Of a DNA stretch of 20,779 bases, positions 3,663 through 18,236 are shown in pieces. The notes under the pieces are model-generated. The model was given only the letters and a program-made list of their open reading frames with translations, did not search any database and was not told where the DNA came from. The first letter of the stretch is position 1. Every line of letters begins with the position of its first letter. Source of the DNA: a virus; IMG/VR virus record IMGVR_UViG_3300047550_000760, positions 1 through 20,779 of that record. The stretch is one strand, 5' to 3'. The position numbers and the translations under genes were made by a program.

Positions 3663-4849
3663 GTTTTGAAGTAACTACCGCACTCAGAAAAATGTTAGCC
3701 ATGACAGCCCGTAAAAAGGTTGTTCAAGGTGCAACATCAAGCGGTAAGACTTACGGGATTATTCCGATACTTTATGACAAGTGTATAGCAACGCCACGCT
3801 TAAAAGTTACGGTAGTAGCTGAAACGTTACCGGCTGTTAAAGAGGGGTGTGTTGATATATTCAAGAACTTCATGATGAATGAGGGTAGGTGGAACGATGA
3901 CCAATGGAACGCTACCGAATTAACCTATACATCACTTAATAAATCAAAGATTCAGTTCAAGTCGTTTGATTCAGTAGGTAAAGCAAAAGCAGCAGGAAAG
4001 AGAGATATACTATTCCTGAACGAAGCAAACCATATACCCTATCCAATAGCAGATGCTCTAATGATTCGTTCTCAGGAGGTGTGGATAGACTTCAACGCTG
4101 ATAGTGAGTTTTGGGCGCATACGGAAGTGTTACAGCAACCGAATAGCGAGTTCCTTAAACTTACCTACTTAGATAATGAAGCAATACCACAGGCAACATT
4201 AGAGGATATGCTTTATAAGCGTTCCAAAGCCGAGGAGGAAGAGCGTAACGGTGTTAGAGGTTATTGGTGGAATTGGTGGCAAGTGTACGGATTAGGAGAG
4301 ATTGGCAACCTACAAGGGGCGGTGTTTAATAACTGGTCAATGGTCAAGGATATACCACCCCACGCTAAGCTGTTAGGATACGGACTCGACTACGGATACC
4401 GAAACGACCCAACGGCATTAGTTGCCATTTGGTATGCAGACCAAATATACTATTTCGATGAGTTGATTTACCAAACGGGGCTACTCAATCAAGCTATATC
4501 TGCAAAGATGACATCATTAGGAGTAGATAGATTCTCAACTATTGTAGCTGATTCAGCGGAGATGAAATCTAATGATGAGTTAAAGGTGTTAGGTTGGCGA
4601 GTTCAGGACGCAAAGAAAGGGTCGGATTCAGTTATTTACGGTATCTCTAAGATGCAAGAACTAGACATTCGTATTACTGAAAGGTCATTGAACTTAATAA
4701 ATGAGTTTCGTAAATACACTTGGGCAACAGATAGAGATGGAAATGCAATGAATAAGCCTATTGATGCTTACAATCACGGAATAGATGCAATACGCTATTT
4801 CTTCCAAACGAACACAGCATCACCAGAAGCCCCACGATTCTTTCTTTAA
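3659..4849 (+). CDS. terL: Terminase large subunit (packaging ATPase/nuclease)
   Basis: The DNA-packaging motor and headful or cos nuclease, 396 residues. Walker A is G-A-T-S-S-G-K-T at residues 24-31; Walker B is I-L-F-L-N-E at 117-122, with Asn in place of the usual Asp and the catalytic Glu at 122. The coupling motif region follows. The RNase H-like nuclease domain starts at about 235, with metal-binding candidates D244 (G-L-D-Y-G), D298 (V-A-D-S-A-E) and D376 (N-H-G-I-D-A-I-R-Y). This layout is that of the Terminase_3-type family and the length is typical. Tryptophan-rich residues 203-207 (W-W-N-W-W) lie in the linker. It is followed by a T-tract/TACACTTA element rather than by a portal gene. 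Confidence 0.95.
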   Translation: MSFEVTTALRKMLAMTARKKVVQGATSSGKTYGIIPILYDKCIATPRLKVTVVAETLPAVKEGCVDIFKNFMMNEGRWNDDQWNATELTYTSLNKSKIQFKSFDSVGKAKAAGKRDILFLNEANHIPYPIADALMIRSQEVWIDFNADSEFWAHTEVLQQPNSEFLKLTYLDNEAIPQATLEDMLYKRSKAEEEERNGVRGYWWNWWQVYGLGEIGNLQGAVFNNWSMVKDIPPHAKLLGYGLDYGYRNDPTALVAIWYADQIYYFDELIYQTGLLNQAISAKMTSLGVDRFSTIVADSAEMKSNDELKVLGWRVQDAKKGSDSVIYGISKMQELDIRITERSLNLINEFRKYTWATDRDGNAMNKPIDAYNHGIDAIRYFFQTNTASPEAPRFFL

Positions 4850-4857
4850 CACTTTCG

Positions 4858-4872
4858 TTTTTTCTACACTTA
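4858..4872 (+). promoter_or_regulatory. Recurring T-tract + TACACTTA element (candidate phage late promoter)
   Basis: T6 at 4858-4863, then c and TACACTTA at 4865-4872, with the ATG at 4879 six bases later. The same arrangement occurs before genes starting at 13323 and 16494 and in weaker form at 9990 and 15873. TACACTTA is a variant of the Bacteroidota -7 box TAnnTTTG, but no TTTG lies at the -33 position. An RNA processing site is the alternative. Confidence 0.5.
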
Positions 4873-4878
4873 CAATAG

Positions 4879-5229
4879 ATGGCAACTAAAGCGGATGTAT
4901 GGAGAACAATCGGGACAGCTACTAGGGTGCTGAATACCGAGATTAAGAAAGAAATCATTCGTCAAGATGCTATTGACACAGGTAGGATGCGGAATGTTTC
5001 AAGGATAGTTAACTTGAAGTGGGATGAGGAAAAGGACGACATGAGTATGGAGATTAGTTCTACATTTTATTACAAGTTCGTTGATGAGGGGAAGTCTAGG
5101 AAATGGAAAAACGGTAAGGTTAACCGTAATATAACCAAGGCATTTATGAAGCGTGAGAAGGTGCTGAAACAGTTAGAGAAAGTAGTAGCTAAGATATTTG
5201 AATACAGAATAGACCAACAGTTTAGATAA
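4879..5229 (+). CDS. Putative neck / tail-completion protein (HK97 gp10-like)
   Basis: A 116-residue basic protein with an N-terminal helix, the motif A-I-D-T-G-R-M (residues about 32-38), a central beta segment (D-M-S-M-E-I-S-S-T-F-Y-Y-K-F-V-D-E-G) and a C-terminal coiled helix rich in K and E. 'D-T-G-x-M...Y-x-x-F-V-D-x-G' is the signature pattern of HK97 gp10-like head-tail joining proteins, where the aromatic strand precedes a glycine-rich turn. It starts right after the T-tract/TACACTTA element and its stop shares one base with the next start (TAATG). Its location between the terminase and tail-tip genes is consistent with a connector role, though away from portal. Family call is moderate. 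Confidence 0.5.
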   Translation: MATKADVWRTIGTATRVLNTEIKKEIIRQDAIDTGRMRNVSRIVNLKWDEEKDDMSMEISSTFYYKFVDEGKSRKWKNGKVNRNITKAFMKREKVLKQLEKVVAKIFEYRIDQQFR

Positions 5230-6722
5230 TGGCAGTAACGATTTTAAAGAACCCACAGGAACTAACACCGGCATACAATCCGATGTACTTCTTATTTAAC
5301 TCAACGGCAAAGGCTAACTTAGGCTTTAGGTATGTAGTAAGGGTAATAAATTCATATACGACAGATGTAATAGGTACTTACTCAATTAAGCCGTTGCCAA
5401 CTACACTATACGGTGAGGTTGATATATCTAAGTTGATTCAGTCCCAACTATTCGCAGACTTCCAACAGGGCGGCTCTTACCTTTCAAATGGTCATTTGTT
5501 GAACTATGAACTTGAGATTGATGAGGAATATTACTACAACATCGCTTTTTCTGATTACGGATTTGCGGGTGCGGCAACGTGGGCTAACTTCTCAGACCCC
5601 GAAGTAAACCCCAACGGATTCAGTAGAACAATGATTTCACACGCTACACTACCAACATACACGGCGGGGGATGTTGTCTTAATCGAGCAAACGCCTGGGG
5701 CAAACTATCGTCCTGAACTTGATGGGGTTCACACGGTTTTAGATGTATTCCTCAGTTCGGGCGTTTACTACACGGTTTTAGATTTACCGTGGATTGGTTC
5801 GGGTGGTGTTAGTGGTGGCGTTTCATCTTATGCAGACGGACAAAAAACATTGATAACGGGCGTTAACTCTGGCGGATTCTATGCTTTTAAAGGAGCGTTT
5901 AAGTTCCTAGCGTTCAAAGACTATTCCGCATTGGATTACACGCTAGGCAGTAACACTAAACAGCTACTAACAAGCCTAACGAGTGACATTCGTGTTAGCA
6001 GACAAAAGCCTACATGGTTACAGGCTTACGTGGATAACACAACGAATCACTATGCAGTATTTAACATAGGCGGTGACTTGTATAGGTACAAACTCCCTGC
6101 GGTATCTTATGCTTTTGATGTAATCTTATTTAACGTCTTACCTTCAACCGTAGCGATTGACGATGAATGGAACGGCTCATCATGGGTAACGTTTAGCGGT
6201 ACGATTGACTTAACAGATGTTGAGAGTTACACGGTACAAGTTAGAACAAGTACAGATACTCAGTTATCCGAAGCGCAAACGATTACATTGTATTCAGAGT
6301 GTGATGGTCATACAACATACGATATTTGTTTCCTTGACCGTTTAGGTTCATGGGTTACAGTACCATTCTATAAGGGTAGCTACATGACCCAAGATGTTGA
6401 GCGTTCAAGTATTCGCAAGAAATACGGATACTATGACGATGCTCAATGGACGTACAACATATCTGACACAGGTAAAGAGATTTACCATGTAGAAGAAGAG
6501 ATTAAATACACCGTAAACACAGGCATATTATCTCAGGCAGAATGTCAATACTACCGTGAATTACTATCCAGTCCACAGGCTTTTGTCTCGATTGATGGTG
6601 GTGAGTTCCAAGCTATTGAGATTGTCACAGCTTCGATGCCATTACACCTACAACGAACACAACGAGACAGGAAAGTTAACTTAGTATTCACTATGTCAGT
6701 TCAAGACGAAATAAACGGGTAA
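5229..6722 (+). CDS. Probable distal tail / tail-tip structural protein (497 aa)
   Basis: A 497-residue beta-rich protein without signal peptide or membrane segment. The opening (P-Q-E-L-T-P-A-Y-N-P-M-Y-F, then Y-G-E-V-D-I-S-K-L-I near residues 60-70) and the end (G-S-W-V-T-V-P-F, Y-R-E-L-L-S-S-P-Q-A-F, R-K-V-N-L-V-F-T-M-S-V-Q-D-E) match a protein type that recurs in Bacteroidota phages and prophages next to the tail hub. A glycine/serine-rich stretch (G-S-G-G-V-S-G-G-V-S) sits near residue 195. It overlaps the next gene by one base (TAATG), indicating coupled synthesis. Its exact place in the tail tip (distal-tail-like or fibre base) is inferred. Confidence 0.55.
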   Translation: MAVTILKNPQELTPAYNPMYFLFNSTAKANLGFRYVVRVINSYTTDVIGTYSIKPLPTTLYGEVDISKLIQSQLFADFQQGGSYLSNGHLLNYELEIDEEYYYNIAFSDYGFAGAATWANFSDPEVNPNGFSRTMISHATLPTYTAGDVVLIEQTPGANYRPELDGVHTVLDVFLSSGVYYTVLDLPWIGSGGVSGGVSSYADGQKTLITGVNSGGFYAFKGAFKFLAFKDYSALDYTLGSNTKQLLTSLTSDIRVSRQKPTWLQAYVDNTTNHYAVFNIGGDLYRYKLPAVSYAFDVILFNVLPSTVAIDDEWNGSSWVTFSGTIDLTDVESYTVQVRTSTDTQLSEAQTITLYSECDGHTTYDICFLDRLGSWVTVPFYKGSYMTQDVERSSIRKKYGYYDDAQWTYNISDTGKEIYHVEEEIKYTVNTGILSQAECQYYRELLSSPQAFVSIDGGEFQAIEIVTASMPLHLQRTQRDRKVNLVFTMSVQDEING

Positions 6723-9637
6723 TGACAAGGATACAACTAGAAACGGGATTTATTGACCTACCGAAAGGCACGGATTTTCCGATTGATTTATCATTCGCAG
6801 AAATAACAAAGAACGGTGCAAGGTCAGGAGGTGTTTCAAGAGTTATCGAGATAGAGGGTAGCGATAACAATACGACGTTGTTAGGTGCTTACTTTGATAT
6901 TGACCTTAGTAACGATACATTCAATCGAAACGCTAAGACTGTCGCTTCAATCATTCAAGATGGGGTTGAGGTGTTTCAGGGATACATTCAACTGTTAGAG
7001 ATTGTACGGGTTAACCGTTTACGCTCAACGAATAGAAAGAAGGTAAGCTATAAGGTTAACGTATTCGACGAGGTAGGGAATTTCTTTAATACGATGGGGG
7101 ATAAGGAGTTGACCGACCTATCATTTCCTGAACTGAGTCATGTATTCAACCGTGAGAACATTATAGATTCATGGTCAAATACAAGTGGCTACACATACCC
7201 ACAATTTGCAAAGGATGACAACATCTATACGCTAAGAGATTTTAAACCGGCAATTTTTGAGTTTGAGTATTGGAAGAAAATCTTTGCATCAAACGGATAC
7301 ACATTCACATTTGATCAGTACAACGATGAAGATTTAAGGATTGACAAACGAATCATTCCGTTTAACGGTAAGCAAGGGGATGACACGGTTAGTCAGTTGC
7401 TACAAGAACGATATATCGTTAAAGGGTCAATGACTTCCGATAGCTTCATTATTGATAACCTAGACGTGCCAGAAGGTTTACTCCCTCCGTTGGATATTCT
7501 AAACGGCACATCTATCAACAACTACGCAACGGCAACGGGTAGCAAGATTCAACTTGACACTATCATTCAAGATGGCGAGAGTCAATACGATACTGTTAAC
7601 GATGACATTGAGAACAAGGCGGGGCAGAATAGAACGGTTAACCTATCAACTTCATATGATTACAGGGTGAATGTTCGGGCGGTCAATAGTTCATCTACTG
7701 TCGTACCATTTGAAGCAGTCAACGTAGCGGGAGGACAGAGCCGTGTAGAGATTAAAGTTTGCCTAGTTGCTCAATCAACTACAAACGTGAACAAGGTAGC
7801 TATAATCGACTCACAGCAGACAGCTATAACGTTTGAAGGTGGTGAGACTTATGCGAGTGGTTGGCAGACGTTGGCGAGTGGTTCAAACGCTTCAACGGCT
7901 TTTCTAGGGCTACTCGATGCCAATGAGAAATTCGATGTTCACGCTCTTGTGTTTGCTCGGTACTACTACGCTAACGGGGTAGTGATAAATAGTGCGGGAG
8001 GACTTGACCAAGCGGTAGTAATGAAAGATACGGGGTCATCTGACTTGGTATTCTTAGAGTTTGACTTAGATATAGACAACCTATCGTTTAAGTCAGTACC
8101 AGACATTGCAGAATTGAGTAGTGGTGTAACAGTGAACATTGATGCTTTCATTCCAAAGAAGATTAAACAACGTGACATTATCAGTTCGATTGCTAAGAGT
8201 TACAATCTTATCTTCATTCCTGACCCTTCCAACGAATCAAACCTAATCGTAAAGACAAGAGATAAATACTACGAGGACGGCAACGAGTGGGATTGGTCGG
8301 ACAAGTTCGATGAGTCACAGCCTAACAGTATAACGTTTCTTTCAAACGATGTTAAACAACGTCAAGTCTACAAGTACAAGGACGATAAAGACACGGTTAA
8401 CTCAGCTTATCAATCAGAGTTTATTGAGACTTACGGGCAGACTACAATAGACCTAGACAACCAATATACGACTGGAACTGATAGCCGTGAGATAATATAC
8501 TCACCAACTCCTTCTATTGGTTCGGGTATTGGCGTACCTTTACCCGCAATAAACGGAATAAACCCCGACTGTAATATTCGGGTGTTGTTGCATAACGGCG
8601 TTGGAACGTGTGGAGTTTACGAGTTCTATGACGATATACTACCTGTCGGAGTGCCTGAGTATGTGACAGAGTATTGCAATACCTCGATGTTTGATAGCGA
8701 TATAGTGCCTAACTTCTCGATATGCTATGACGCACCGAATGTATTGTTTCATGGGTTTCAGCAAGGACAAACGACTAACTATCTGTATAACCTACACCAC
8801 CAACAAGAGCTAACAACGATCAACACGGGCAAACGGTTGACAGGGTATTTTAATCTTAGCGAGGGTGATTTTCAGAAGCTATCCAAACAACTTGATTGGA
8901 AAGTATTTATTAAGGATAACGGATGGTTCTTTGTTTCAAAGATTCATGGATATAACAGCAACAAAAAGACATTAACGAAGGTAGACTTAATCACAGCGGA
9001 TGAGAAGTTACGTTTGAAGTTTAGACGACCATTACGCCCTGTTATTCAAAACGTGCTATCGGCTACACCTGTAACGGTTAAGTTTTTCCGAGATGTTGCC
9101 CACTCGACGAATGTAGTCTTAGGCTCTAAAGACGTTTCGATTGATGGTAAGTACAACTTTGTTTCAGCAGAAAAGGTAAAGATTCTAGGCGACCGAAATA
9201 CGGTCATCGCTTCGGATGCTATCGTTTTAGGCGACAGGAACACAGTTGAAGTGCCAGGCGTTAAGGTTGTAGCGAATGATAGTACACCTCAGAGTTCTGG
9301 AGTGTCACAAGGAGGTGAGAAAGTGTTTAAGGCTAAAGTGTTTCAGTCAGGCACAAACGCTCCAAGATTAACCATTATTAAGAATGATTTTGGAGGCACA
9401 ATAACTACAAGTAGAGTAACAGCGGGAGGATATGGTATATTAGGGTTCAACTCCCAATTAACGGGAAATGTTGAGGTTTCTTGGAACTTTGGCTCATTTG
9501 TCCTTACTAAACAAGTATTATCACTACTACCAACTACTAGCACGGTAGTGTTCTCAACATACGATTCAGGTGTTCAATCAGACGATTGTTTTGTAGGGTC
9601 AGTCGATAAGTATATAACAATCACTAAATACCCATGA
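6722..9637 (+). CDS. Large tail-hub / baseplate-like protein with C-terminal adhesin-like region (971 aa)
   Basis: The largest gene. The N-terminus (D-F-P-I-D-L-S-F-A-E-I, S-G-G-V-S-R-V-I-E-I-E-G-S-D-N-N, Y-F-D-I-D-L-S-N-D-T-F-N, I-Q-D-G-V-E-V-F-Q-G-Y-I-Q-L) is the signature I know for tail hub or baseplate proteins of Bacteroidota phages. The hub-like region ends near residue 760 (L-T-K-V-D-L-I-T-A-D-E-K-L). It is followed by a short repeat with two G-D-R-N-T-V units (residues 823-828 and 837-842, 14 residues apart), like turns of a small beta-helix, then a serine/glycine linker and a beta-sandwich-like end (about 865-971) suited to receptor or glycan contact. The 3' end overlaps the minus-strand lipoprotein gene by 14 bases. 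Confidence 0.65.
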   Translation: MTRIQLETGFIDLPKGTDFPIDLSFAEITKNGARSGGVSRVIEIEGSDNNTTLLGAYFDIDLSNDTFNRNAKTVASIIQDGVEVFQGYIQLLEIVRVNRLRSTNRKKVSYKVNVFDEVGNFFNTMGDKELTDLSFPELSHVFNRENIIDSWSNTSGYTYPQFAKDDNIYTLRDFKPAIFEFEYWKKIFASNGYTFTFDQYNDEDLRIDKRIIPFNGKQGDDTVSQLLQERYIVKGSMTSDSFIIDNLDVPEGLLPPLDILNGTSINNYATATGSKIQLDTIIQDGESQYDTVNDDIENKAGQNRTVNLSTSYDYRVNVRAVNSSSTVVPFEAVNVAGGQSRVEIKVCLVAQSTTNVNKVAIIDSQQTAITFEGGETYASGWQTLASGSNASTAFLGLLDANEKFDVHALVFARYYYANGVVINSAGGLDQAVVMKDTGSSDLVFLEFDLDIDNLSFKSVPDIAELSSGVTVNIDAFIPKKIKQRDIISSIAKSYNLIFIPDPSNESNLIVKTRDKYYEDGNEWDWSDKFDESQPNSITFLSNDVKQRQVYKYKDDKDTVNSAYQSEFIETYGQTTIDLDNQYTTGTDSREIIYSPTPSIGSGIGVPLPAINGINPDCNIRVLLHNGVGTCGVYEFYDDILPVGVPEYVTEYCNTSMFDSDIVPNFSICYDAPNVLFHGFQQGQTTNYLYNLHHQQELTTINTGKRLTGYFNLSEGDFQKLSKQLDWKVFIKDNGWFFVSKIHGYNSNKKTLTKVDLITADEKLRLKFRRPLRPVIQNVLSATPVTVKFFRDVAHSTNVVLGSKDVSIDGKYNFVSAEKVKILGDRNTVIASDAIVLGDRNTVEVPGVKVVANDSTPQSSGVSQGGEKVFKAKVFQSGTNAPRLTIIKNDFGGTITTSRVTAGGYGILGFNSQLTGNVEVSWNFGSFVLTKQVLSLLPTTSTVVFSTYDSGVQSDDCFVGSVDKYITITKYP

Positions 9638-9959
9638 CAAATCCACTCTTTGTAAAAGTAAGTAGACCACTCTTTACGGTGTCACGGTCTGAAACAACAA
9701 CATACGGCAGTTGTGTAACAGTATCTTCATGCCAAGTTGTGAAACCGAATGAAGTGTTTAAACATGGGTTGTCGTATGTTTGGAAGGAGAACGAATCATT
9801 TCCTGAAACATTAATTGAAATAGAGTCGCAACCTTCTTTATGTAATCCATTCACAAAAGAAGCAGTGAATTGGACTTTAGAACGTAATTGTGTAACTTTT
9901 TTAAGTTCTGTTTTTTGGCATGAAACCAACAATAACGATGCAATAAATAGCTTTTTCAT
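9624..9959 (-). CDS. Minus-strand lipoprotein, probable moron (111 aa)
   Basis: The only convincing minus-strand gene. The protein starts M-K-K-L-F-I-A-S-L-L-L-V-S-C: basic start, hydrophobic core and lipobox L-V-S-C with lipidation cysteine at residue 14. The mature part is about 97 residues of beta-like sequence with two further cysteines (C-D-S-I-S-I-N-V and N-P-C-L-N). The lipid cysteine is followed by Q-K-T-E, a little like the Q-K-rich surface-export signal known in Capnocytophaga. It is tail-to-tail with the hub gene and head-to-head with the tape-measure gene, with its own exact host-type -7 box upstream. An inserted lipoprotein expressed from the lysogen or early in infection, for example to block superinfection, is inferred. 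The + strand frame over the same bases lacks such features. Confidence 0.7.
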   Translation of the reverse strand: MKKLFIASLLLVSCQKTELKKVTQLRSKVQFTASFVNGLHKEGCDSISINVSGNDSFSFQTYDNPCLNTSFGFTTWHEDTVTQLPYVVVSDRDTVKSGLLTFTKSGFVMGI

Positions 9960-9967
9960 ATAACTTG

Positions 9968-9980
9968 TTTTTTACAAATA
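9968..9980 (+). promoter_or_regulatory. Weak copy of the T-tract + TACA element before the tape-measure gene
   Basis: T6 (9968-9973) running into TACAAATA (9973-9980), nine bases before the ATG at 9990. Spacing and composition resemble the stronger copies at 4858, 13301 and 16473, but the CTT core is replaced by AAT. It overlaps the minus-strand -7 box at 9975-9982, so use of one would hinder the other. Confidence 0.35.
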
Positions 9981-10003
9981 TAAAATAAAATGGCAACAGA
10001 CAA
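9975..10003 (-). promoter_or_regulatory. Host-type promoter for the minus-strand lipoprotein
   Basis: Read on the minus strand: TTG (10003-10001), an 18-base spacer and TATATTTG (9982-9975), an exact TAnnTTTG -7 box. An A-rich leader of 15 bases then leads to the ATG at 9959. The -33 box lies inside the first codons of the tape-measure gene, so the two genes share this control region. Confidence 0.6.
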
Positions 10004-11843
10004 CACAATTAAAATAAATATTGATATTGACGACAGACCAGTCAAGTCATTGAAAGCCGAATTAAGGGAGACCGTACAACAGTTGCAACAAACTGAACTA
10101 GGTACGGAAGCCTTTGAACGTCTGAACGCTAAAGCCGCCGCACTTAAAGATAGAATGGCGGAAGTGAATGAACAAGTTGCCGTTTTCGCTACGGGGTCAA
10201 AGTACGAGCAAGTCAGTAACTCATTAGGTGAGATTGGAGCGGGTCTTCGTGACATGGACTTTGATAGAGTCACGCAAGGGGCGAAGCTATTTCAAAAGAC
10301 AGCCGGTGCGATTACCTTTAAGGATGCAATAGGTTCTCTCAAACAAATGGGGGCGGCGTTTGCTTCGATTGGTAAGACTATCTTAACGAATCCTTTATTC
10401 TTAATCGTTGGAGTTGTGGCGGCTATCATTGCGGGTATTGTTGCCTTGCTCGATGAGTTGGGGATATTGAAGGACATCTTTAAAGCTGTTGGCGATGCGA
10501 TAGGGTTTGTTATTCAAAAGCTGAAAGACTTTCTCGACTGGATGGGGTTGACCTCATTTGCGGCGGAAGATTCAGCACGTAGACAGGCGGCGGCTCAGGA
10601 ACAGATTGCAGCAGCTCATGCGGCTAAACAAGAAAAGGTTGTCGATGCTTACGACCATGAGATACGAATGGCAAAGATAGCGGGTAAGGATACCGTTGAC
10701 ATGGAACGCCAAAAGCAACACGCTATTATTCAAACGTCGAGAGCGCAATACGAAGCACTAGGCGCACAAATGGAAGCGTTACGGGCTTCGGGAGACTTGA
10801 CTAAAGAGAAAGCCGATGAGATACGCAAGGCAATGCTTGACCTAAAGGAAAACATTAGAGAAGCAAAGCAAGAGATACAAGCAATCAACGCCCAAGAGGT
10901 AGAGGATAACAAGGCGTCAAACGAGAAGAAAGCACAAGACAATGCGGCGGCAGCTAAAGCAGCTAAAGAGAAGCGCAAACAATATGCGGCGGATAGACTA
11001 GCGGCAGAAAGAGCCATTCAAGATGCGGAGTTCGACCTACTTAAAGAGGGGGAATACAAGGAGTTTGAAGCGAATAGGATTAAATATGAAAGGCTTATTC
11101 AAGATACTTTAGCGAATGAAAAGCTATTAGCAAAGGAGCGCGAGGAGTTAGTATTCAACCTAAAGCAGCAACAACTAGCGGGGGAACTAGCTATCGAACA
11201 AAAGTACCTAGATCAAAAGGCACAAGCTGAAAAAGAAGCGAATGAAAAACGTTTAGCAGACGAAGCAAATAAGAACGAGGTATCGAAAGCGGCGGCGGAA
11301 GAAATGGCACAGTTAGCCAAGGAGAACGCTCAGAAAGAAATAGCTAACCGAAAAGAAGCAACGGAAGCATCCATAGATATGGCGGGAACATTGCTAACGG
11401 CTATATCGGCGAACGTGAAAGAAGGTAGTAAAGCGGCTAAAGCGGTAGCTGTTGCACAGGCTACAATAGACACTTATAAAGCGGCGGTTAGTGCTTACGC
11501 TTCGGCGGCTCAAACGCCTATCGTTGGTCCAGTGTTAGCCCCTTTAGCGGCGGCGGCGGCAGTAGCTATGGGTATAGCGAATGTTCGTAAAATCCTATCA
11601 ACTGACCCGACAAAGGGTAGTGGCACACCTTCGGCAAGTGGTGGAGGTGGTAGCGTTCCAACGCCTTCATTTGGAATGGCTCAACAGCCACAGCAAACGC
11701 CAAACATGAATATAAATAACGGGGTTACTCAGAACGCTGGAGGGCAGACAATGAGGGAGCGAGTTATAGTAGTTGACTACCACGACATACAAAATAAAGG
11801 CAATGAGTTGCAAATGACACAACAAAAGGTTACTTTAGCGTAA
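9990..11843 (+). CDS. Tail tape-measure protein (617 aa)
   Basis: Likely sets tail length and is threaded through the tube before DNA release. An N-terminal part with D-D-R-P-V-K-S-L-K-A-E-L-R-E-T-V is followed by helical heptad-like sequence, a hydrophobic segment (about residues 131-155, L-F-L-I-V-G-V-V-A-A-I-I-A-G-I-V) fit for membrane insertion, an amphipathic region to 185, then a long coiled-coil of A, E, K and Q from about 195 to 460. The C-terminal part (470-540) is alanine-rich and hydrophobic with a P-I-V-G-P-V-L-A-P-L-A-A-A-A-A turn, and the end is Q/N/G/P-rich. At 617 residues it is short; if the usual 0.15 nm per residue rule holds, the tail is about 90 nm. No peptidoglycan hydrolase domain is visible. 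Confidence 0.85.
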   Translation: MATDNTIKINIDIDDRPVKSLKAELRETVQQLQQTELGTEAFERLNAKAAALKDRMAEVNEQVAVFATGSKYEQVSNSLGEIGAGLRDMDFDRVTQGAKLFQKTAGAITFKDAIGSLKQMGAAFASIGKTILTNPLFLIVGVVAAIIAGIVALLDELGILKDIFKAVGDAIGFVIQKLKDFLDWMGLTSFAAEDSARRQAAAQEQIAAAHAAKQEKVVDAYDHEIRMAKIAGKDTVDMERQKQHAIIQTSRAQYEALGAQMEALRASGDLTKEKADEIRKAMLDLKENIREAKQEIQAINAQEVEDNKASNEKKAQDNAAAAKAAKEKRKQYAADRLAAERAIQDAEFDLLKEGEYKEFEANRIKYERLIQDTLANEKLLAKEREELVFNLKQQQLAGELAIEQKYLDQKAQAEKEANEKRLADEANKNEVSKAAAEEMAQLAKENAQKEIANRKEATEASIDMAGTLLTAISANVKEGSKAAKAVAVAQATIDTYKAAVSAYASAAQTPIVGPVLAPLAAAAAVAMGIANVRKILSTDPTKGSGTPSASGGGGSVPTPSFGMAQQPQQTPNMNINNGVTQNAGGQTMRERVIVVDYHDIQNKGNELQMTQQKVTLA

Positions 11844-11852
11844 AAAATTAAT

Positions 11853-12023
11853 ATGAAATACTTTATAGGATTAATTGTAGCAAGTGTATTAGCTGCTATA
11901 TTAGCGTTGTTTAATAAGCATTTGCTAAATGGTTTAATGAGTGATTTTTTTATTGGTTGGATTTGTTGCACCGCTTACCTTGTTGCAAAATATCTTTATG
12001 AAAATTCTACAAGAAAAATTTAG
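11853..12023 (+). CDS. Small two-segment membrane protein after tape measure (56 aa)
   Basis: A short gene preceded by the A-rich taaaaaattaat and placed 9 bases after the tape-measure stop; its own stop is 5 bases before the next ATG. It encodes 56 residues with two hydrophobic stretches (about 4-20 and 32-47, the second containing G-W-I-C-C-T), split by a short loop with K22 and H23, and a charged C-terminus (Y-E-N-S-T-R-K). The shape is compatible with a small holin-like or infection-related inner-membrane protein, but no lysis gene stands nearby, so the function is open. Perfect fit in the gap supports coding. Confidence 0.6.
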   Translation: MKYFIGLIVASVLAAILALFNKHLLNGLMSDFFIGWICCTAYLVAKYLYENSTRKI

Positions 12024-12028
12024 AGTAT

Positions 12029-12604
12029 ATGAAAACAATCACAATAAAAGGCAAAGATTACGCTATACGAAACGAAGGTCACGAAGTAACGCTAAACGAG
12101 TTGGCTAAAATCTCATTAATCCTGGAGAATGAAGCGGAGGACTTTGTAGATAAATGGCTTAGAGTGTTTGAGATTCTAGGTAGCCGTGAACTTGTTGATG
12201 CTATTCCATTGAATAAGTTTGTTGAGGTTCAACAATCAGTAGACATCACGCAAATCAGTAATGAGATTAAGCCTATAATCGAGGTTAACGGTAGAACGTA
12301 TTCTTGTCAGTTAGATGAGGAAGGAAACATTGAATTGTCGGCAAAAGACATGGCAAAGATTGAGCGTATGTATAGAAAAGGTGGTACATGGGGAGTTAAA
12401 GCGTTTGCAGTAGTATACAAGGACGATGCCTTGACAAAGTTCGAGCATCATGTAGACAGTCATATCGACCACAAAGCTAAACTATTCGGTGACGCTGTTA
12501 CGGCTGATGTTGCCGCCCCTGTCGTGTTTCAACTAGCTAAAGAGGTCATGAAGTATATTCAATCGCTTATTGATGCTCAAAGTAAATCAATACCGGCAAA
12601 TTAA
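12029..12604 (+). CDS. Probable tail-assembly chaperone-type protein (191 aa)
   Basis: A 191-residue acidic soluble protein starting M-K-T-I-T-I-K-G-K-D-Y-A-I-R and containing E-V-T-L-N-E-L-A-K-I-S at about residues 18-28, followed by helices. Bacteroidota phages often encode a protein of this build beside the tape measure, and tail chaperones elsewhere bind the tape measure during tube assembly; the role here follows from position plus the acidic helical make-up. A Q-L-A-K-E-V-M-K-Y-I helix ends the protein. Its 3' end overlaps the next gene by 32 bases, in a frame that would need a +1 or -2 shift to fuse the two; I see no classical slippery site. Confidence 0.45.
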   Translation: MKTITIKGKDYAIRNEGHEVTLNELAKISLILENEAEDFVDKWLRVFEILGSRELVDAIPLNKFVEVQQSVDITQISNEIKPIIEVNGRTYSCQLDEEGNIELSAKDMAKIERMYRKGGTWGVKAFAVVYKDDALTKFEHHVDSHIDHKAKLFGDAVTADVAAPVVFQLAKEVMKYIQSLIDAQSKSIPAN

Positions 12605-13283
12605 TTCAGAAGAGATAGAGGGTGTATTTGATAAAATGATACACCTTGTTTCTATCGTAAACGACTTAGACCCCTTCGATGTTCAAGATTGGAGGGGCGA
12701 TAAGTTAATAAACGCTTACAGTGAAGCACAACAAAAAATAAAACTAAGTGAACGCCACAGCAATAAGATAACGATTGAAGGTTACGAGTTAAGACTTATT
12801 GACTTTTCAAGGCTTACACTTATGCAGTTCATTAATAACGAGGAGTTGATAAACTCAGGATTCGACTCCAACATTCACAAGATAGCCGCTTCGTTATACC
12901 TCCGTGTTGAAGGTGGCGGCATGACTGATGAGATAATCGAGCCTTACCGAAATGTTAACATTGAATATCGTTCAGAGTTAATTGATGAACTACCGATTAA
13001 CTCAATCTATGGGGCTTGTAAGAAATACCTAACTTTCAGAGATAACTTCTTTAATTCTTACGACTTGTTTCATGACCCGTTAGAAGGTGTTGACCCTTCC
13101 GAACTGTCAGAGGATGAGTTAGAAATCTATAACGAAGAAGTTAAGAAGCGAGAGAAAGAGGGCGGCAATCAATGGTTAACTTTGCTTAACGCTCTATCGA
13201 ACAACGATATTACTAAGTTCGATGCTATTCTTGACACAAATCTATTCACAGCGTTCAATCAACTGTCTTATTTGAGGACGTAA
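12573..13283 (+). CDS. Conserved tail-module protein, possible second tail chaperone (236 aa)
   Basis: From the ATG at 12573 the protein has 236 residues. It is acidic and helical, with L-R-L-I-D-F-S-R-L-T-L-M-Q-F-I-N-N-E-E near residues 70-90, followed by H-K-I-A-A-S-L-Y-L-R-V-E-G-G-G. The pattern 'F-x-x-hydrophobic-T-x-x-Q-F-hydrophobic...hydrophobic-A-x-L-Y-x' recurs in proteins adjoining tail genes of Bacteroidota phages. A charged run (E-E-V-K-K-R-E-K-E-G-G) precedes the C-terminal helices. The start overlaps the preceding gene by 32 bases; a later in-frame ATG lies at 12636. Function inferred only from neighbours: tape measure upstream, prohead protease downstream. Confidence 0.45.
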   Translation: MLKVNQYRQINSEEIEGVFDKMIHLVSIVNDLDPFDVQDWRGDKLINAYSEAQQKIKLSERHSNKITIEGYELRLIDFSRLTLMQFINNEELINSGFDSNIHKIAASLYLRVEGGGMTDEIIEPYRNVNIEYRSELIDELPINSIYGACKKYLTFRDNFFNSYDLFHDPLEGVDPSELSEDELEIYNEEVKKREKEGGNQWLTLLNALSNNDITKFDAILDTNLFTAFNQLSYLRT

Positions 13284-13300
13284 AAAATCGCACAATTTCA

Positions 13301-13315
13301 TTTTTTTTACACTTA
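13301..13315 (+). promoter_or_regulatory. Recurring T-tract + TACACTTA element (candidate late promoter)
   Basis: T8 (13301-13308) running directly into TACACTTA (13308-13315), followed by tagtaga and the ATG at 13323. The 14 bases TTTTACACTTATAG are shared with the copy before the gene at 16494. It probably starts the head-gene transcription unit. No hairpin is visible just upstream. Confidence 0.55.
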
Positions 13316-13322
13316 TAGTAGA

Positions 13323-14762
13323 ATGAATGAGATTCCGACTTATTACGTTACATTAAAACCTATCCGAGAGGGAGCTCAACCCGCTTTTGGTTGGCGTAAT
13401 ATTGCCTTCGTTCCTGACCCCGCTATTGATGAAGTTGGGGTTTATCTATCCGAACACGATCAACGAGTTGTGGCAGATGACAACGTTCAATCCTTAATAC
13501 TTGAATATCTCAAAGGTTGTGGCGTTGTAAAGCCTGAGAATTGGCGAGAGGTGACAGAAGAGGAATACTTAGAAGCACGTAGTGTTAATCTAGGAGTAGA
13601 AGATTCGGAAAGCTACAACGACTTACAGAAAAAAGGCGGCGGCGGTCAATGGTTAGTTCGATATGAATATTCTGGACCAGTCGATGAAAAAACGAGGGAT
13701 TTTTGCCGTGAGGTAATATCACTTGGTAAGCTATACACTGAGGAGGAAATAAAGAACGGATTGTCGAATCCTGAGTTCGGTGACTACTCAATCTTTGACT
13801 ATAAAGGTTCTTACGGTTGCCGCCACGTATGGAAGCGTAGGATATACTTTGAGGACTACGAAGATAACGAGGTTAGGCGTGTTGGATTCGTTCCACAAGT
13901 TGTATCTCGATTAGATGACAAGATGGCTACTACGTTAAACGCTTATCTATCAAAGGACGAACAGATGCAAGTGGTCGCACCGTTGCTAATACCTGACAAG
14001 AAGATATTTCGTAACGATGAGATAGGGCGTTACAATATGGAGTTTAGCCGTGAGACAATCAAAGAATTATTTGATGTGGCATTGAGCCGTGACGTACTAG
14101 AGAAAGAGGATTTATTCAAGGATACACACGAAGGTAGCACAGCCCCGGCATACGTGTTAGACGCTTGGATTAGTGAGGATGAAAATGACAAGGCTTATAC
14201 TCAGTTTGGGTTTGGACTTAGCCGAACACCGATAGGTACTCTATTCGTTCACTCTCAGGTGACAGATAAAGACTATTGGACTAAAGAGATTAAAGGAAAT
14301 AAAAAATACGCTTATTCAATCGAAGCGTTAATGAATTTATCAATCGTTAAATTAAGTAAAATGGAAAAAGAGCAAATCGTCCTTCCTGACGGTGAGCATC
14401 TTATCAATGGTACGATATACGTTGTAGAAGGCGGTGTTGTTGTATCAACGAAAGAGGTAACACCTGAACAGGAGGAAGTCATCGAAGATGTGGCGGAAGA
14501 AGCAGCACCAGAAGAAATGGCAGAGGAGGCAGTAGTAGAAAAAGCCCCTGCAACTCCCGAAGCGACTACCGAAGCACCTGTTGAAGATGAAAGGTTAGCG
14601 AAATTGGAAGCAGCACAAGAGGAGTTGATGTCCGAAATCGCAAAATTAAAAGGTGAGTTAGAAGCCCCTAAGGTGGAAGATGTAGCCGTGGCAATGTCGG
14701 ATGAACGTCCTTTATGGAAAAGATTCTCTGATGGTATTAACGCAATCAAAAAACAAAAATAA
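13323..14762 (+). CDS. Prohead protease (XkdF/S78_2-like) with N-terminal Mu F-like region and C-terminal scaffold-like tail
   Basis: A 479-residue multidomain head-morphogenesis protein. Residues about 110-175 carry Y-E-Y-S-G-P-V-D-E-K-T-R-D-F-C (C128) and G-S-Y-G-C-R-H-V-W (C166, H168), resembling the C-terminal part of Mu gpF-like minor head proteins. Residues about 215-340 match the XkdF-type S78 serine protease: H269 in T-H-E-G-S, then Y-V-L-D-A-W-I, D-N-D-K analogues and Y-A-Y-S-I-E with the candidate nucleophile S332. The last 130 residues hold L-P-D-G-E-H-L-I-N-G, a Pro/Glu/Ala-rich linker and a coiled coil (about 424-448), the build of a scaffold. An internal ATG at 14361 (M347) after A-rich bases could yield the scaffold alone. 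The capsid gene follows after one base. Confidence 0.75.
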   Translation: MNEIPTYYVTLKPIREGAQPAFGWRNIAFVPDPAIDEVGVYLSEHDQRVVADDNVQSLILEYLKGCGVVKPENWREVTEEEYLEARSVNLGVEDSESYNDLQKKGGGGQWLVRYEYSGPVDEKTRDFCREVISLGKLYTEEEIKNGLSNPEFGDYSIFDYKGSYGCRHVWKRRIYFEDYEDNEVRRVGFVPQVVSRLDDKMATTLNAYLSKDEQMQVVAPLLIPDKKIFRNDEIGRYNMEFSRETIKELFDVALSRDVLEKEDLFKDTHEGSTAPAYVLDAWISEDENDKAYTQFGFGLSRTPIGTLFVHSQVTDKDYWTKEIKGNKKYAYSIEALMNLSIVKLSKMEKEQIVLPDGEHLINGTIYVVEGGVVVSTKEVTPEQEEVIEDVAEEAAPEEMAEEAVVEKAPATPEATTEAPVEDERLAKLEAAQEELMSEIAKLKGELEAPKVEDVAVAMSDERPLWKRFSDGINAIKKQK

Positions 14763-14763
14763 A

Positions 14764-15813
14764 ATGTCAAGAGTAAACGAGCTATCCGTAAATATCGGAG
14801 GTAAAACAATCATGTTGTCTAAGGACGACTTCAAAGCAGCGAAAAAAGCATTTTTCGACCCAACAACCGCAGAAGGTAAAGAGATTCAAATGGCTATGAC
14901 CGTTGACACTTCAGCGGCTTACACTACTAACGCTACCGAGTATTTCCGTAAGGCAATGATCGGCGAGGAAAAAACACGCTCTAAGTTTCGCCAATTACTT
15001 GGGGTTAAAGACCGTGTGAACCTTGGAGGTGTTGATGTAACAGGCGTAACAATCAAGGCGGGTACTTGTGACCCTGACTTTGACGATACAGTTCTAGAAC
15101 AAAAGGAGTACGAAGTAAAAGCGTTGATGTATTCAACAATTTTCTGTGTTGCTTCATTGGAGGAGTCTTTCGTATCTGATCAGTTGGCAAGAGGTTCAAA
15201 CTCTTTCAATCAGAACTTTGCGTTCATGAACTTTTTCTTCTCTAAGTTAGCTGAGGAGTTGACAGAGCAAATGGAGATCGTAACATTCCAAGGTACTGTT
15301 GCGGATAACGGAGTTGATGGTCTTGAAACATTGATGACAGCGGACACTAACGTATTGAAGCCTACATCTGGTAACGGTGGCGTTGCTTCTGCAATCACTG
15401 ATTCAAACGTTGTGGCTAAGTTGAAACAAGCACGTAACGTACTACCTAAAGCGGTAAGACGAAGAAAAGATTTCGTGTATATCGTTTCTACAAATGTATG
15501 GGATGCTTTAGCTGATGCGGTAGCTGATAACAAAGCGTCTGGATTGTACTACATTGAAGCTGAGATGTTGAAGTTCCAAGGAACTGAGATTTACAAAGCT
15601 GATGGTGCATCTGACGACGTTATTATTGCAACTTATTGGGAGAACCTTGTAAACATTCAAGATTTGATGGATGAGGAGTTAGGATTCAATATTGTTGACT
15701 TCATGAAGACTACACTATCTCGTAAAATTGGAGTACGTGTTGACTTCAAATTCCAACCTTCATACACTAACGCTGACGAGATTTACTTCCACAAGTTTGT
15801 ACCAACTCCATAA
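14764..15813 (+). CDS. Major capsid protein (349 aa)
   Basis: The ATG at 14764 follows the A-rich aaaacaaaaataaa and gives 349 residues starting M-S-R-V-N-E-L-S-V. The frame is open further up (ATG at 14701) but those 21 residues lie inside the protease gene and are atypical. Features fitting an HK97-type shell subunit: helical N-terminus (K-D-D-F-K-A-A-K-K-A-F-F), a beta-strand region with G-V-D-V-T-G-V-T-I-K-A-G, a long spine-like helix near 160-175, and a C-terminal F-K-F-Q-P-S-Y-T-N-A-D-E-I. Codon use is strict (few rare codons), as expected for a strongly expressed gene. Location between protease/scaffold and a terminator hairpin supports the call. Confidence 0.8.
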   Translation: MSRVNELSVNIGGKTIMLSKDDFKAAKKAFFDPTTAEGKEIQMAMTVDTSAAYTTNATEYFRKAMIGEEKTRSKFRQLLGVKDRVNLGGVDVTGVTIKAGTCDPDFDDTVLEQKEYEVKALMYSTIFCVASLEESFVSDQLARGSNSFNQNFAFMNFFFSKLAEELTEQMEIVTFQGTVADNGVDGLETLMTADTNVLKPTSGNGGVASAITDSNVVAKLKQARNVLPKAVRRRKDFVYIVSTNVWDALADAVADNKASGLYYIEAEMLKFQGTEIYKADGASDDVIIATYWENLVNIQDLMDEELGFNIVDFMKTTLSRKIGVRVDFKFQPSYTNADEIYFHKFVPTP

Positions 15814-15825
15814 TTCTAAATCAAC

Positions 15826-15849
15826 GGGGGTGTAAAAGCCCCCTATTTA
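15826..15849 (+). terminator. Hairpin after the capsid gene, probable (partial) terminator
   Basis: GGGGG (15826-15830), loop tgtaaaag, CCCCC (15839-15843), followed by tatttat. It lies 13 bases after the capsid stop. The stem is short and the T-run interrupted, so it may slow or partly end transcription and help set a high capsid:tail-tube ratio. Confidence 0.55.
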
Positions 15850-15859
15850 TTCACACTTA
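15845..15859 (+). promoter_or_regulatory. Degenerate copy of the ACACTTA element
   Basis: tatttat followed by CACACTTA (15852-15859), 13 bases before the ATG at 15873. It shares ACACTTA with the three strong copies but lacks a long T-tract and has wider spacing. It directly follows the capsid hairpin, as the 16473 copy follows its terminator. Confidence 0.3.
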
Positions 15860-15872
15860 AAAATTAGAAGAT

Positions 15873-16427
15873 ATGGCAATTTGTTCAGCAATAACAGGAA
15901 TACCTAAAGACTGTGGAGATAACAATCTAGGCTCAATCAAACGTGCCTTAATCGGTTCGTTTGAAGATGTCACAGGGTTAACGGTAACGGCAACGAATGA
16001 CCCTGACACGGATGGTGAGGTTACAGCAATCACAAGAACAACGGGAACAAAGTTTGAAGAGTTCTCTTTCCCTAAAGACACTTCGATGTTCACTCAGGAT
16101 TTAGTTGTTGACCTTGTGGCAGATACTCACTCATGGTCTCAAACGTTAGAGTTAGGATTCCGTAGAATTGATTTAAGAAAGCGTAATGCTATCATGCTAC
16201 TTGCGGCGGGTAGACGAGACTTAATCGCAGTTGTTCAAGACAATAACGACGATTGGTGGATGTTAGGCTCTGACCAAGGGTTGAGATTGTCGGCAAATGC
16301 TGCAACGGTTAACAACACAAGAGCAGCGGGTCAGGCTATCCCTGTAACATTGACAGCAGAAAACGAGCGTCACATGTTGTACAAGGTAGATCCGGACATT
16401 GTAGCGGCTTTACTTACAGCAGCGTAA
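15873..16427 (+). CDS. Probable major tail-tube protein (184 aa)
   Basis: A 184-residue soluble, mainly beta protein. The opening M-A-I-C-S-A-I-T-G-I-P-K-D-C-G-D-N-N-L-G then I-K-R-A-L-I-G-S-F-E-D-V is a pattern I associate with abundant tail proteins of Bacteroidota phages (cysteine near residue 4, C-G-D-N-N, then a strand ending F-x-D-V). Size, the location in a stand-alone unit between two terminator-like hairpins next to the capsid gene, and clean codon use suit a highly made virion component, hence tail tube. A head-decoration protein is the main alternative. The C-terminus ends in L-L-T-A-A. Confidence 0.5.
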   Translation: MAICSAITGIPKDCGDNNLGSIKRALIGSFEDVTGLTVTATNDPDTDGEVTAITRTTGTKFEEFSFPKDTSMFTQDLVVDLVADTHSWSQTLELGFRRIDLRKRNAIMLLAAGRRDLIAVVQDNNDDWWMLGSDQGLRLSANAATVNNTRAAGQAIPVTLTAENERHMLYKVDPDIVAALLTAA

Positions 16428-16448
16428 AAAAAATAATTCAGAAAAAAC

Positions 16449-16480
16449 AGCCCTTCTTTCGCACAGAGGGGCTTTTTTTT
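16449..16480 (+). terminator. Rho-independent terminator
   Basis: Nine-pair stem AGCCCTTCT (16449-16457) with AGAGGGGCT (16465-16473), one G-T wobble, loop ttcgcac, then a run of eight T (16473-16480). It ends the tail-tube unit 21 bases after its stop. The T-run is also the T-tract of the next TACACTTA element. Confidence 0.85.
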
Positions 16481-16487
16481 ACACTTA
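16473..16487 (+). promoter_or_regulatory. TACACTTA element fused to the terminator T-run
   Basis: T8 (16473-16480) flowing into TACACTTA (16480-16487), then tagtag and the ATG at 16494. It is nearly identical to the copy at 13301. An end signal and a start signal thus share eight bases, allowing a new transcription unit for the portal region right at the terminator. Confidence 0.55.
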
Positions 16488-16493
16488 TAGTAG

Positions 16494-16850
16494 ATGAGCA
16501 ATTTTGTAATAAGAAAAAACACTATTAACAATATCGTTGTAACGGTATCTGAAAGGTCGCAATTAGTTGACCCTTACTTCTTAATAGTGTTCACAAATAA
16601 GTTTTCTACCGAGGAAGTTACAGCCGTTACATCTGTTCAGAACGGGGTGGCTGTTAACTCTCGTTATGATTTATTCGTAATAACCGAAACGCCAGGGGCA
16701 GAACCTCTAAATGGTGAGGTGTATTTAATAGAGGGCGAATGGTCGTACAAGGTTTACGAAAGCACGACTCAAACCCTTGTAGTCAGTGAAACTACGGGGC
16801 GAGTATTACAAGAAGGATTTATTGTAGTTAAAGAACAAGAAGGAAACTAA
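16494..16850 (+). CDS. Small conserved Bacteroidota-phage protein (118 aa)
   Basis: A 118-residue beta-rich protein: K-N-T-I-N-N-I-V-V-T-V-S-E at the start, Y-F-L-I-V-F-T-N near residue 28, S-R-Y-D-L-F-V-I-T-E at about 56-65, G-E-W-S-Y-K-V-Y-E near 81-89 and an E-G-F-I-V-V-K end. The series 'N-x-I-x-V-T-x-x-E ... Y-F-L ... R-Y-D-x-F ... G-x-W-x-Y-x-V-Y' recurs in small proteins next to portal or tail genes of Bacteroidota phages; I know no tested function. A virion accessory or connector role is inferred. It is the first gene after the terminator and ends three bases before the portal ATG. Confidence 0.6.
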   Translation: MSNFVIRKNTINNIVVTVSERSQLVDPYFLIVFTNKFSTEEVTAVTSVQNGVAVNSRYDLFVITETPGAEPLNGEVYLIEGEWSYKVYESTTQTLVVSETTGRVLQEGFIVVKEQEGN

Positions 16851-16853
16851 TAT

Positions 16854-18236
16854 ATGGGATGGTTTAGCAGAAATACACCACCAACGCCACAAGCTACGGA
16901 GGTTGAGAATAAGAATATCGAATGTTTCAGAACGATAAACACCGAGGGGTTAGACCTTTCTCAACCGTTTGTCGATGACTACTATTCAAGGGGTTTTAAC
17001 TTCGTTTTCTTTGGTGAAGATAACTTATACCCTCAGATTCTAAATCAGTTGTATATTAGTTCACCTATGCATCAAGCGTGTTGCAACTTCAAGAAGTATT
17101 CGTTAGTTGGCAACGGTTACGAGTGGGAGGGATACGATGCTTTAGCGGTTGCTGAAAAGATTAAGATTAAACAGTTTGAATCAATGTCAGGGCTACCGAA
17201 AGGAGCGGCAAAGATTGCGTTGAATTGGATTAAGCACGGGCGAGTTATTGCATTAGTTCACTACTCAAAGGAATATAAGAAATACACACACTTCAAGTTA
17301 GTTGACCCTGAGAATATCCGTAACGCTCACTTAGGGTTATTCTCTGACAATCCATCGCACTACTTCTATTCCCGTGATTGGTCGCTTAGTTCGGCTCAGT
17401 TGACGTTAACACCTTACTCAGTAGGTAATACCGATGAGTGGCAAGTAGTCGAGATTAAAAACGAGGTGGGAGGATTCAGAGCATACGGTATGCCTGATTG
17501 GGCGTCGTCCGCTAACTGGCAGAAAGTAGGGGCGGATATTGCCTTACTTCATAAGTCAGCTATTGAGAATGGAATACAACCAAGCGTTATCTATAAGTAT
17601 CCTTACATCATGTCTCCTGACGAAAGAACCGTTTGGGAGCAAGGGATGAGAAAGAACGCTAAGGGGGCTAAGAACTACGGACGTGCTATGAAGGTTGAAG
17701 CACAGTCAAAGGATATGTTACCCGAAGTAGACGTTGTATCCACTACTGACAATCACGCCTTGTTTGAGCAAACGAGCAAGGAGTATAAAGAAGAGGTGGC
17801 AATATCTCACAACCTAGACCCTGCATTGATGGGAGTACGTGTTGCTGGTTCATTAGGCAACCAAGATGAAAAAGAGTTTGCCGCTGAACAGTTTAAGAAA
17901 CTTTGGGTAAACGATAACCGACAAACGATTGAGGACTTCTTGAATCATTTAGCTACTATCTGCGGTGTTGGGGTTAAGTTGAAGGTTAACGAAACGGATA
18001 TATTGACAGTTAAGGAATCTATTAAAGAAGGTGTTGCGCCGAAACAAGGTGAGCAACTTAGCCAACAGCCACAAGTGAACGATTCATTGAAAGGGTTATC
18101 TGCTAAAGAAAACATGGATATGATGAGGATTATTCGTGACTACTCTAAAGGGCGTTTAGCTGAACCGTTAGCACGTACACGACTAGCAGCGTATGGAATT
18201 GACCAAGATACAATTAACGAAATATTAGCGCAATGA
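16854..18236 (+). CDS. Portal protein (460 aa)
   Basis: Would form the dodecameric ring at one capsid vertex through which DNA passes. Diagnostic features: F-F-G-E-D-N-L-Y-P-Q-I-L-N-Q-L near residues 51-65 followed by S-S-P-M-H-Q-A; G-N-G-Y-E-W; N-W-I-K-H-G-R-V-I-A-L-V-H; a mid stretch with F-K-L-V-D-P-E-N-I-R-N-A; and a late helical part with H-N-L-D-P-A-L-M-G-V then G-S-L-G-N-Q-D-E-K-E-F-A-A. The last pattern is common to SPP1/HK97-type portals in Bacteroidota phages. Length is normal. The C-terminal 70 residues are linker-like (Q-Q-P-Q-V) plus helices. The position well after the capsid gene, instead of after the terminase, is unusual. The stop overlaps the next start (ATGA). Confidence 0.8.
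   Translation: MGWFSRNTPPTPQATEVENKNIECFRTINTEGLDLSQPFVDDYYSRGFNFVFFGEDNLYPQILNQLYISSPMHQACCNFKKYSLVGNGYEWEGYDALAVAEKIKIKQFESMSGLPKGAAKIALNWIKHGRVIALVHYSKEYKKYTHFKLVDPENIRNAHLGLFSDNPSHYFYSRDWSLSSAQLTLTPYSVGNTDEWQVVEIKNEVGGFRAYGMPDWASSANWQKVGADIALLHKSAIENGIQPSVIYKYPYIMSPDERTVWEQGMRKNAKGAKNYGRAMKVEAQSKDMLPEVDVVSTTDNHALFEQTSKEYKEEVAISHNLDPALMGVRVAGSLGNQDEKEFAAEQFKKLWVNDNRQTIEDFLNHLATICGVGVKLKVNETDILTVKESIKEGVAPKQGEQLSQQPQVNDSLKGLSAKENMDMMRIIRDYSKGRLAEPLARTRLAAYGIDQDTINEILAQ

Follow-up and report, generated by a model that had tools for sequence, protein, structure and literature searches.

What is the short, T-rich element that recurs directly before late genes of this phage, and what reads it? 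The stretch of DNA analysed here (the window) is a 20.8-kb IMG/VR record, a fragment of an uncultured tailed phage in which every gene lies on the + strand, as do all features described below. Its gene order runs from an Erf-like annealing protein and small early genes through the terminase small and large subunits to the neck, tail, tape measure, protease, capsid, tube, 118-aa protein and portal genes (the names neck, capsid and tube are assigned from gene order alone). A sequence-only reading had described three strong and two weak copies of the element, together with a related site at 1607, and had suggested that they may form a phage-specific class of late promoters, with a T-tract in place of the upstream promoter box, from which transcription would begin on the ATG or right beside it.

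The three strong copies are present as described, with TTTTTTCTACACTTA at 4858-4872 and TTTTTTTTACACTTA at both 13301-13315 and 16473-16487 (the last two indeed have TTTTTTTTACACTTATAGTAG in common), and they end 6, 7 and 6 nt upstream of the ATGs at 4879, 13323 and 16494, respectively. Each of these ATGs opens a late unit: the first contains the neck-like gene (4879-5229, an ORF with orthologs and no family match); the second contains the prohead-protease-like gene (13323-14762, matching XkdF/S78 weakly at E = 0.0015), followed by the capsid gene (14764-15813); and the third contains the gene for the 118-aa protein (16494-16850, an ORF with orthologs) with the portal gene (16854-18236). A search of the window found T6-N0-3-ACACTTA at these three sites only (7 overlapping matches, none on the other strand), compared with 0.01 matches expected per strand from dinucleotide shuffles.

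The claim that a T-tract stands in place of the -33 box does not hold, as an upstream, -35-like AACA or CACA box exists 14 or 15 nt before ACACTTA. In the first putative promoter (P1), AACA at 4848-4851 overlaps the terminase stop codon (the orthologs have AACA at N14) and precedes the downstream, -10-like ACACTTA at 4866-4872; in P2 the boxes are CACA at 13291-13294 and ACACTTA at 13309-13315; and in P3 they are CACA at 16462-16465 and ACACTTA at 16481-16487. The two weaker copies, at 9968-9980 before the tape measure gene and at 15845-15859 before the tube gene, lack the upstream box, and the element is absent from the orthologous tape measure and tube starts in relatives; the 1607 site has no upstream box either and does not belong to the set. 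Upstream of the tape measure gene, the window contains a 109-aa ORF (9634-9963) with no match in relatives, which is likely to be an insertion because the large tail and tape measure genes that flank it adjoin each other in relatives.

Orthologous starts were compared across relatives collected by a capsid-protein scan (27 loci) and a terminase scan (80 more). The comparison gave (A/C)ACA, a spacer of 14 or 15 nt, ACA(Y)(W)TA and then 4 to 8 nt to the ATG. Of the genes compared, only those for the neck, protease and 118-aa proteins have this element conserved in front of them; it was not found at other starts preceded by gaps, such as those of capsid and tube. The upstream box is AACA in relatives (L006 has AATG where others have AACA) and CACA twice in the window. 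With the downstream box located blind to AACA, AACA lay at a spacing of 14 or 15 nt in 35 of the 43 distinct sites of relatives and had a different spacing in one; at all well-scoring sites the downstream box ended 4-8 nt before the ATG. A T-tract was rejected as a defining part of the element: a run of at least five T was found in only 29 of the 43 distinct sites, and L022, L023, L042 and L058 have an A-rich spacer instead. As judged from these alignments, the T-tract is spacer only.

The bipartite pattern occurs four times in the window (the three promoters and one site in the sigma-like gene described below), compared with 0.44 matches expected per strand. When the ATG was included in the pattern, the window and its capsid relatives (312 kb) gave 44 forward matches and none in reverse, some of these matches coming from near-identical genomes, so that the independent cases are fewer and 11 distinct lineages is the fairer count; the terminase relatives in which no sigma homolog was detected (296 kb) gave none forward and one in reverse. 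Each genome has about three matches, before orthologous starts, with one to three starts carrying the box. The site is recurrent and confined to late-gene starts on the coding strand, as in a phage late promoter class. The fourth match in the window, an exact CACA-N15-ACACTTA at 2679-2704, lies inside the sigma-like gene and upstream of the terminase genes; it is probably due to chance, and could be an internal terminase promoter.

The sequence of the downstream box varies between phages (ACACTTA, ACATATA, ACACATA and CCACATA), and the copies within a phage agree: all three boxes are ACACTTA in the window, ACATATA in the G002 group and CCACATA in L019, and both are ACACATA in L018 and ACACTTA in L029. 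The mean Hamming distance between downstream boxes within a genome was 0.62, compared with 1.65 when boxes were permuted among genomes (p = 5e-5, 11 lineages); the same test gave p = 0.04 for the upstream box. Identical sets were removed before permutation, and the statistic otherwise ignores shared ancestry. A more distant clade (L084, L090 and L093) has AACA-N14/15-ACGTTATA before both the neck and protease genes (9 matches forward, none in reverse); the protease of the L084/L090 clade has a GTG start right after the promoter (L090, 19345-19377). Such coherence within each phage is the expected outcome of a trans-acting phage factor that co-evolves with its sites. In another distant clade, ACATTATA-like boxes stand a few nt before two late ATGs (5898 and 10083 in L085; also in L086 and L088), and no sigma homolog was detected in these three with the profile used.

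A candidate for this factor is encoded at 2436-2951, outside the region covered by the sequence-only reading, which had also missed the upstream AACA. The gene has a GTG start (as it does in G002), encodes 171 aa and separates the early/replication genes from the terminase genes; homologs occupy the identical position in those relatives that cover the region. No sigma profile in Pfam or NCBIfam matched the protein, which gave only sub-threshold HTH matches (YlxM, Mga); its sequence appears too diverged for profiles to decide. AlphaFold2 models (pLDDT 72 with 15 sequences and 80 with 18; pTM 0.41-0.45) predict two helical domains, with helices spanning residues 2-80 and 93-166, and a disordered link at 81-92. 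The predicted structure thus has the ECF layout, in which a flexible linker connects sigma2 to sigma4 and there is no sigma1 or sigma3. In Foldseek searches of the PDB, the first 24 matches of one model and the first 20 of the other were sigma factors, mostly ECF (best E 0.004-0.07), and ECF sigmas ranked first for both domains; among viral models, the named top matches include RpoE-like sigmas of uncultured phages. Over the two domains together, Z values from VIA reached 8.7; the rmsd was large, owing to a different placement of the domains. The C-terminal domain aligned to sigma-E region 4 bound to -35 DNA with Z = 8.4 at 2.6 Å over 69 residues (7.8 at 2.8 Å for the second model). For helical folds, VIA cautions that a Z below 13 may mean a weak match.

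The presence of this gene follows that of the element. Among distinct terminase-bearing contigs with a close sigma homolog, 21 of 22 carry the element after the terminase, compared with 0 of 13 contigs that have no homolog and at least 3.7 kb of upstream sequence; L072, with a divergent homolog, has no element after its terminase. Kinship among the genomes means that these counts, like those above, overstate the evidence. Distant terminase relatives with weak sigma homologs (L094-L114) have other boxes adjoining the next gene, for which recurrence within a genome was not established. A phage single-subunit RNA polymerase was rejected as the reader, with no such family among the nine ORFs scanned of the ~29.9-kb unit of a relative (G002). 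That relative (L033 and L034, IMGVR_UViG_3300020044_002851) is a 40-kb record in which the unit is followed by a second, slightly different neck-to-protease copy, as would arise from a chimeric assembly, or from mixed strains whose genome is circular or concatemeric.

Together, these results make it likely that the three elements are late promoters, that the phage encodes an ECF-type sigma factor with which the host core RNA polymerase reads them, and that the resulting mRNAs have little or no leader. Early genes would be transcribed from the host's own promoters; the sigma factor, made with the early/middle genes, would then direct the host core polymerase to the -35-like (A/C)ACA and -10-like ACACTTA boxes, 14 or 15 nt apart, of the three late units. 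We infer this binding and its timing. Because the -10-like box lies 4-8 nt before the ATG, a normal -10-to-start distance would place the RNA start on the ATG or a few nt from it, and the neck, protease and 118-aa genes would be translated from mRNAs with no leader or almost none. As the earlier proposal had it, the best-supported reading remains a class of late promoters specific to the phage, from which transcription would start on or beside the ATG; the T-tract of that proposal is not a defining feature, and two of its five copies and the 1607 site are excluded.

The alternative that survives best, and one we regard as unlikely, keeps the promoters phage-specific and changes their reader to another phage factor, such as a polymerase activator, or to an alternative host sigma, leaving the 2436-2951 product an unrelated helical DNA-binding protein. 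The failure of any sequence profile to call this protein a sigma, and the several small phage genes that have no assignment, would both fit. Against this, sigma factors come first for both domains in two models, and gene presence tracks element presence (21/22 vs 0/13); the concerted change of the boxes within a phage argues against a host factor in particular.

Less probable still is that the sites are degenerate promoters of the host primary sigma, which in Bacteroidota are built on -33 TTTG and -7 TAHHTTTG. The host is probably a bacterium of this phylum, as far as sequence comparison can tell, because the terminase is kin to phages of Flavobacteriia (best matches Elizabethkingia and Flavobacterium phages, 45-47%) and host-type promoters occur in the early regions of relatives. 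Capsid, portal and sigma-like protein had no match among named phages, and a terminase scan of bacterial genome contigs found no relative, so neither a provirus nor a host. In TACACTTA the TA and TT of the -7 box are retained, and the -7-to-start geometry would fit. However, the likeness to TAnnTTTG that had been pointed out is superficial: the conserved core is ACAYWTA, preceded by T, G or C, conservation does not extend to the T of TA (GACACATA, GCCACATA), and TTTG is absent in all copies. Nor is there a -33 TTTG, the conserved upstream box being AACA at N14/15, and the box sequences drift together within each phage. Good host-type promoters are present in early regions: TTG-N17-22-TAnnTTTG with A-rich leaders of ~26-35 nt precedes early-region genes of relatives. 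Textbook examples at G004 27924 and G008 16149 (late-gene orientation) consist of TTG-N18-22-TATATTTG followed by A-rich leaders and early-region genes, and point to Bacteroidota as the host group.

P3 differs from the other two promoters in being merged with an intrinsic terminator after the tube gene (16449-16480; 9-bp stem, 7-nt loop, T8 tract; -13.5 kcal/mol, z = -5.0). The T-tract of P3 is the U-tract of the terminator, its CACA box lies in the hairpin loop with the last base in the 3' arm (across phages, within the loop or at its edge), and its spacer consists of the 3' arm and the U-tract. The hairpin before the 118-aa gene folds in 8/8 phages tested (z -3.5 to -6.4), giving the stable, G+C-rich hairpin and U-tract, kept in relatives, of an intrinsic terminator. 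The window has the two arms exchanged (AGCCC...GGGGCT vs GGGG...CCCC), and in the alignment all five stem pairs show changes on both sides, which is moderate support, as the stem sets a G-run against a C-run and slid registers pair equally. No such G+C-rich hairpin is present at P1 or P2. With a terminator at this point, the 118-aa gene needs a promoter of its own, and ~40 bp would thus end one unit, through the hairpin and U-tract, and begin the next, with the loop serving as the -35 box and the arm and T-tract as the spacer. A terminator-like hairpin also lies between the major capsid and tube genes (15826-15843), with no bipartite promoter after it. This conserved hairpin and the conserved TTTAAAAATTAGAAA-like stretch that follows it before the tube gene (together 15826-15872) constitute, possibly, an attenuator and a translation signal that set the capsid:tube ratio.

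The terminator also bears on whether the elements act in translation initiation rather than as promoters, which we consider very improbable. They always lie within ~8 nt of the start codon, and in Flavobacterium initiation is favoured by an A at -3/-6 (PMC6847099). A translation element would not, however, explain a second box at fixed spacing ~30 nt upstream, nor the restriction to one to three starts per genome and the absence from the gap-preceded capsid and tube starts, nor an intrinsic terminator directly upstream of 16494. That T-rich, AT-rich sequence recurs before starts by chance, as might happen in an AT-rich genome, is already refuted by the strand counts (44 vs 0) and the control set; the low expectation of 0.44 and conservation across diverged phages also speak against it.

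Whether the window represents a fast-diverging family of ECF-type sigma factors, probably of Bacteroidota phages, each with its own matched promoters, with leaderless late mRNAs (where the hosts mostly have leaders of ~33 nt) and a terminator-embedded promoter, is an evenly balanced question. The proposed system would define a sigma factor and its matching promoters in phages of Bacteroidota-like hosts, a phage group whose late transcription is little studied in the open-access literature searched; we found no description of this promoter class there. Sigma specificity could be read from the co-variation of the natural variants (ACACTTA, ACATATA, CCACATA and ACGTTATA), leaderless translation during infection of such hosts would become testable, a compact terminator-promoter fusion would have been documented, and an orthogonal expression tool for Bacteroidota could follow.

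In phage T4, the small sigma gp55 redirects host core polymerase to late genes, whose promoters have a TATAAATA -10 box and no -35 box and require the sliding clamp and gp33; here, unlike in T4, an upstream box is conserved, and the promoters do not consist of TATAAATA only. Late regulators of the Xpf/ArpU/RinA type, from phages of Firmicutes hosts, are encoded just before the small terminase gene and have a sigma-like or HTH fold; the 2436-2951 gene, directly upstream of the terminase genes and with a predicted sigma-like fold, resembles them by position, predicted fold and proposed control of late genes; no relation in sequence was established. The closest parallels in strategy are phiEco32 and 7-11, phages of enterobacterial hosts with an encoded sigma, a few well-conserved phage promoters (TGATGT..TATA) for non-early genes and host-type promoters for early ones; 7-11, which also has an anti-sigma factor, carries four long motifs (late) and six short ones (middle) (PMC4331800). 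The present phage would share with them its own, here predicted, sigma, few phage-specific promoters and early genes served by host-type promoters, and differs in its AACA-N14/15-ACAYWTA motif and in having three promoters each placed at an ATG, one of them merged with a terminator. Bacteroidota primary-sigma promoters (-33 TTTG, -7 TAHHTTTG) likewise have two boxes in AT-rich surroundings, with other sequences and spacing, and in F. johnsoniae most leaders exceed 10 nt, with a mean of 33 (PMC6847099), whereas essentially no leader is predicted here. In TA-led leaderless bacterial genes, a -10-like box ~10-12 nt before the start codon is treated as a sign of leaderless transcription (PMC3160421), although those boxes are signals of the host main sigma in cellular genes. 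The strategy is therefore known in outline from phiEco32, 7-11 and T4; the box sequences, their spacing, their placement at the start codon and the merger with a terminator set the present promoters apart.
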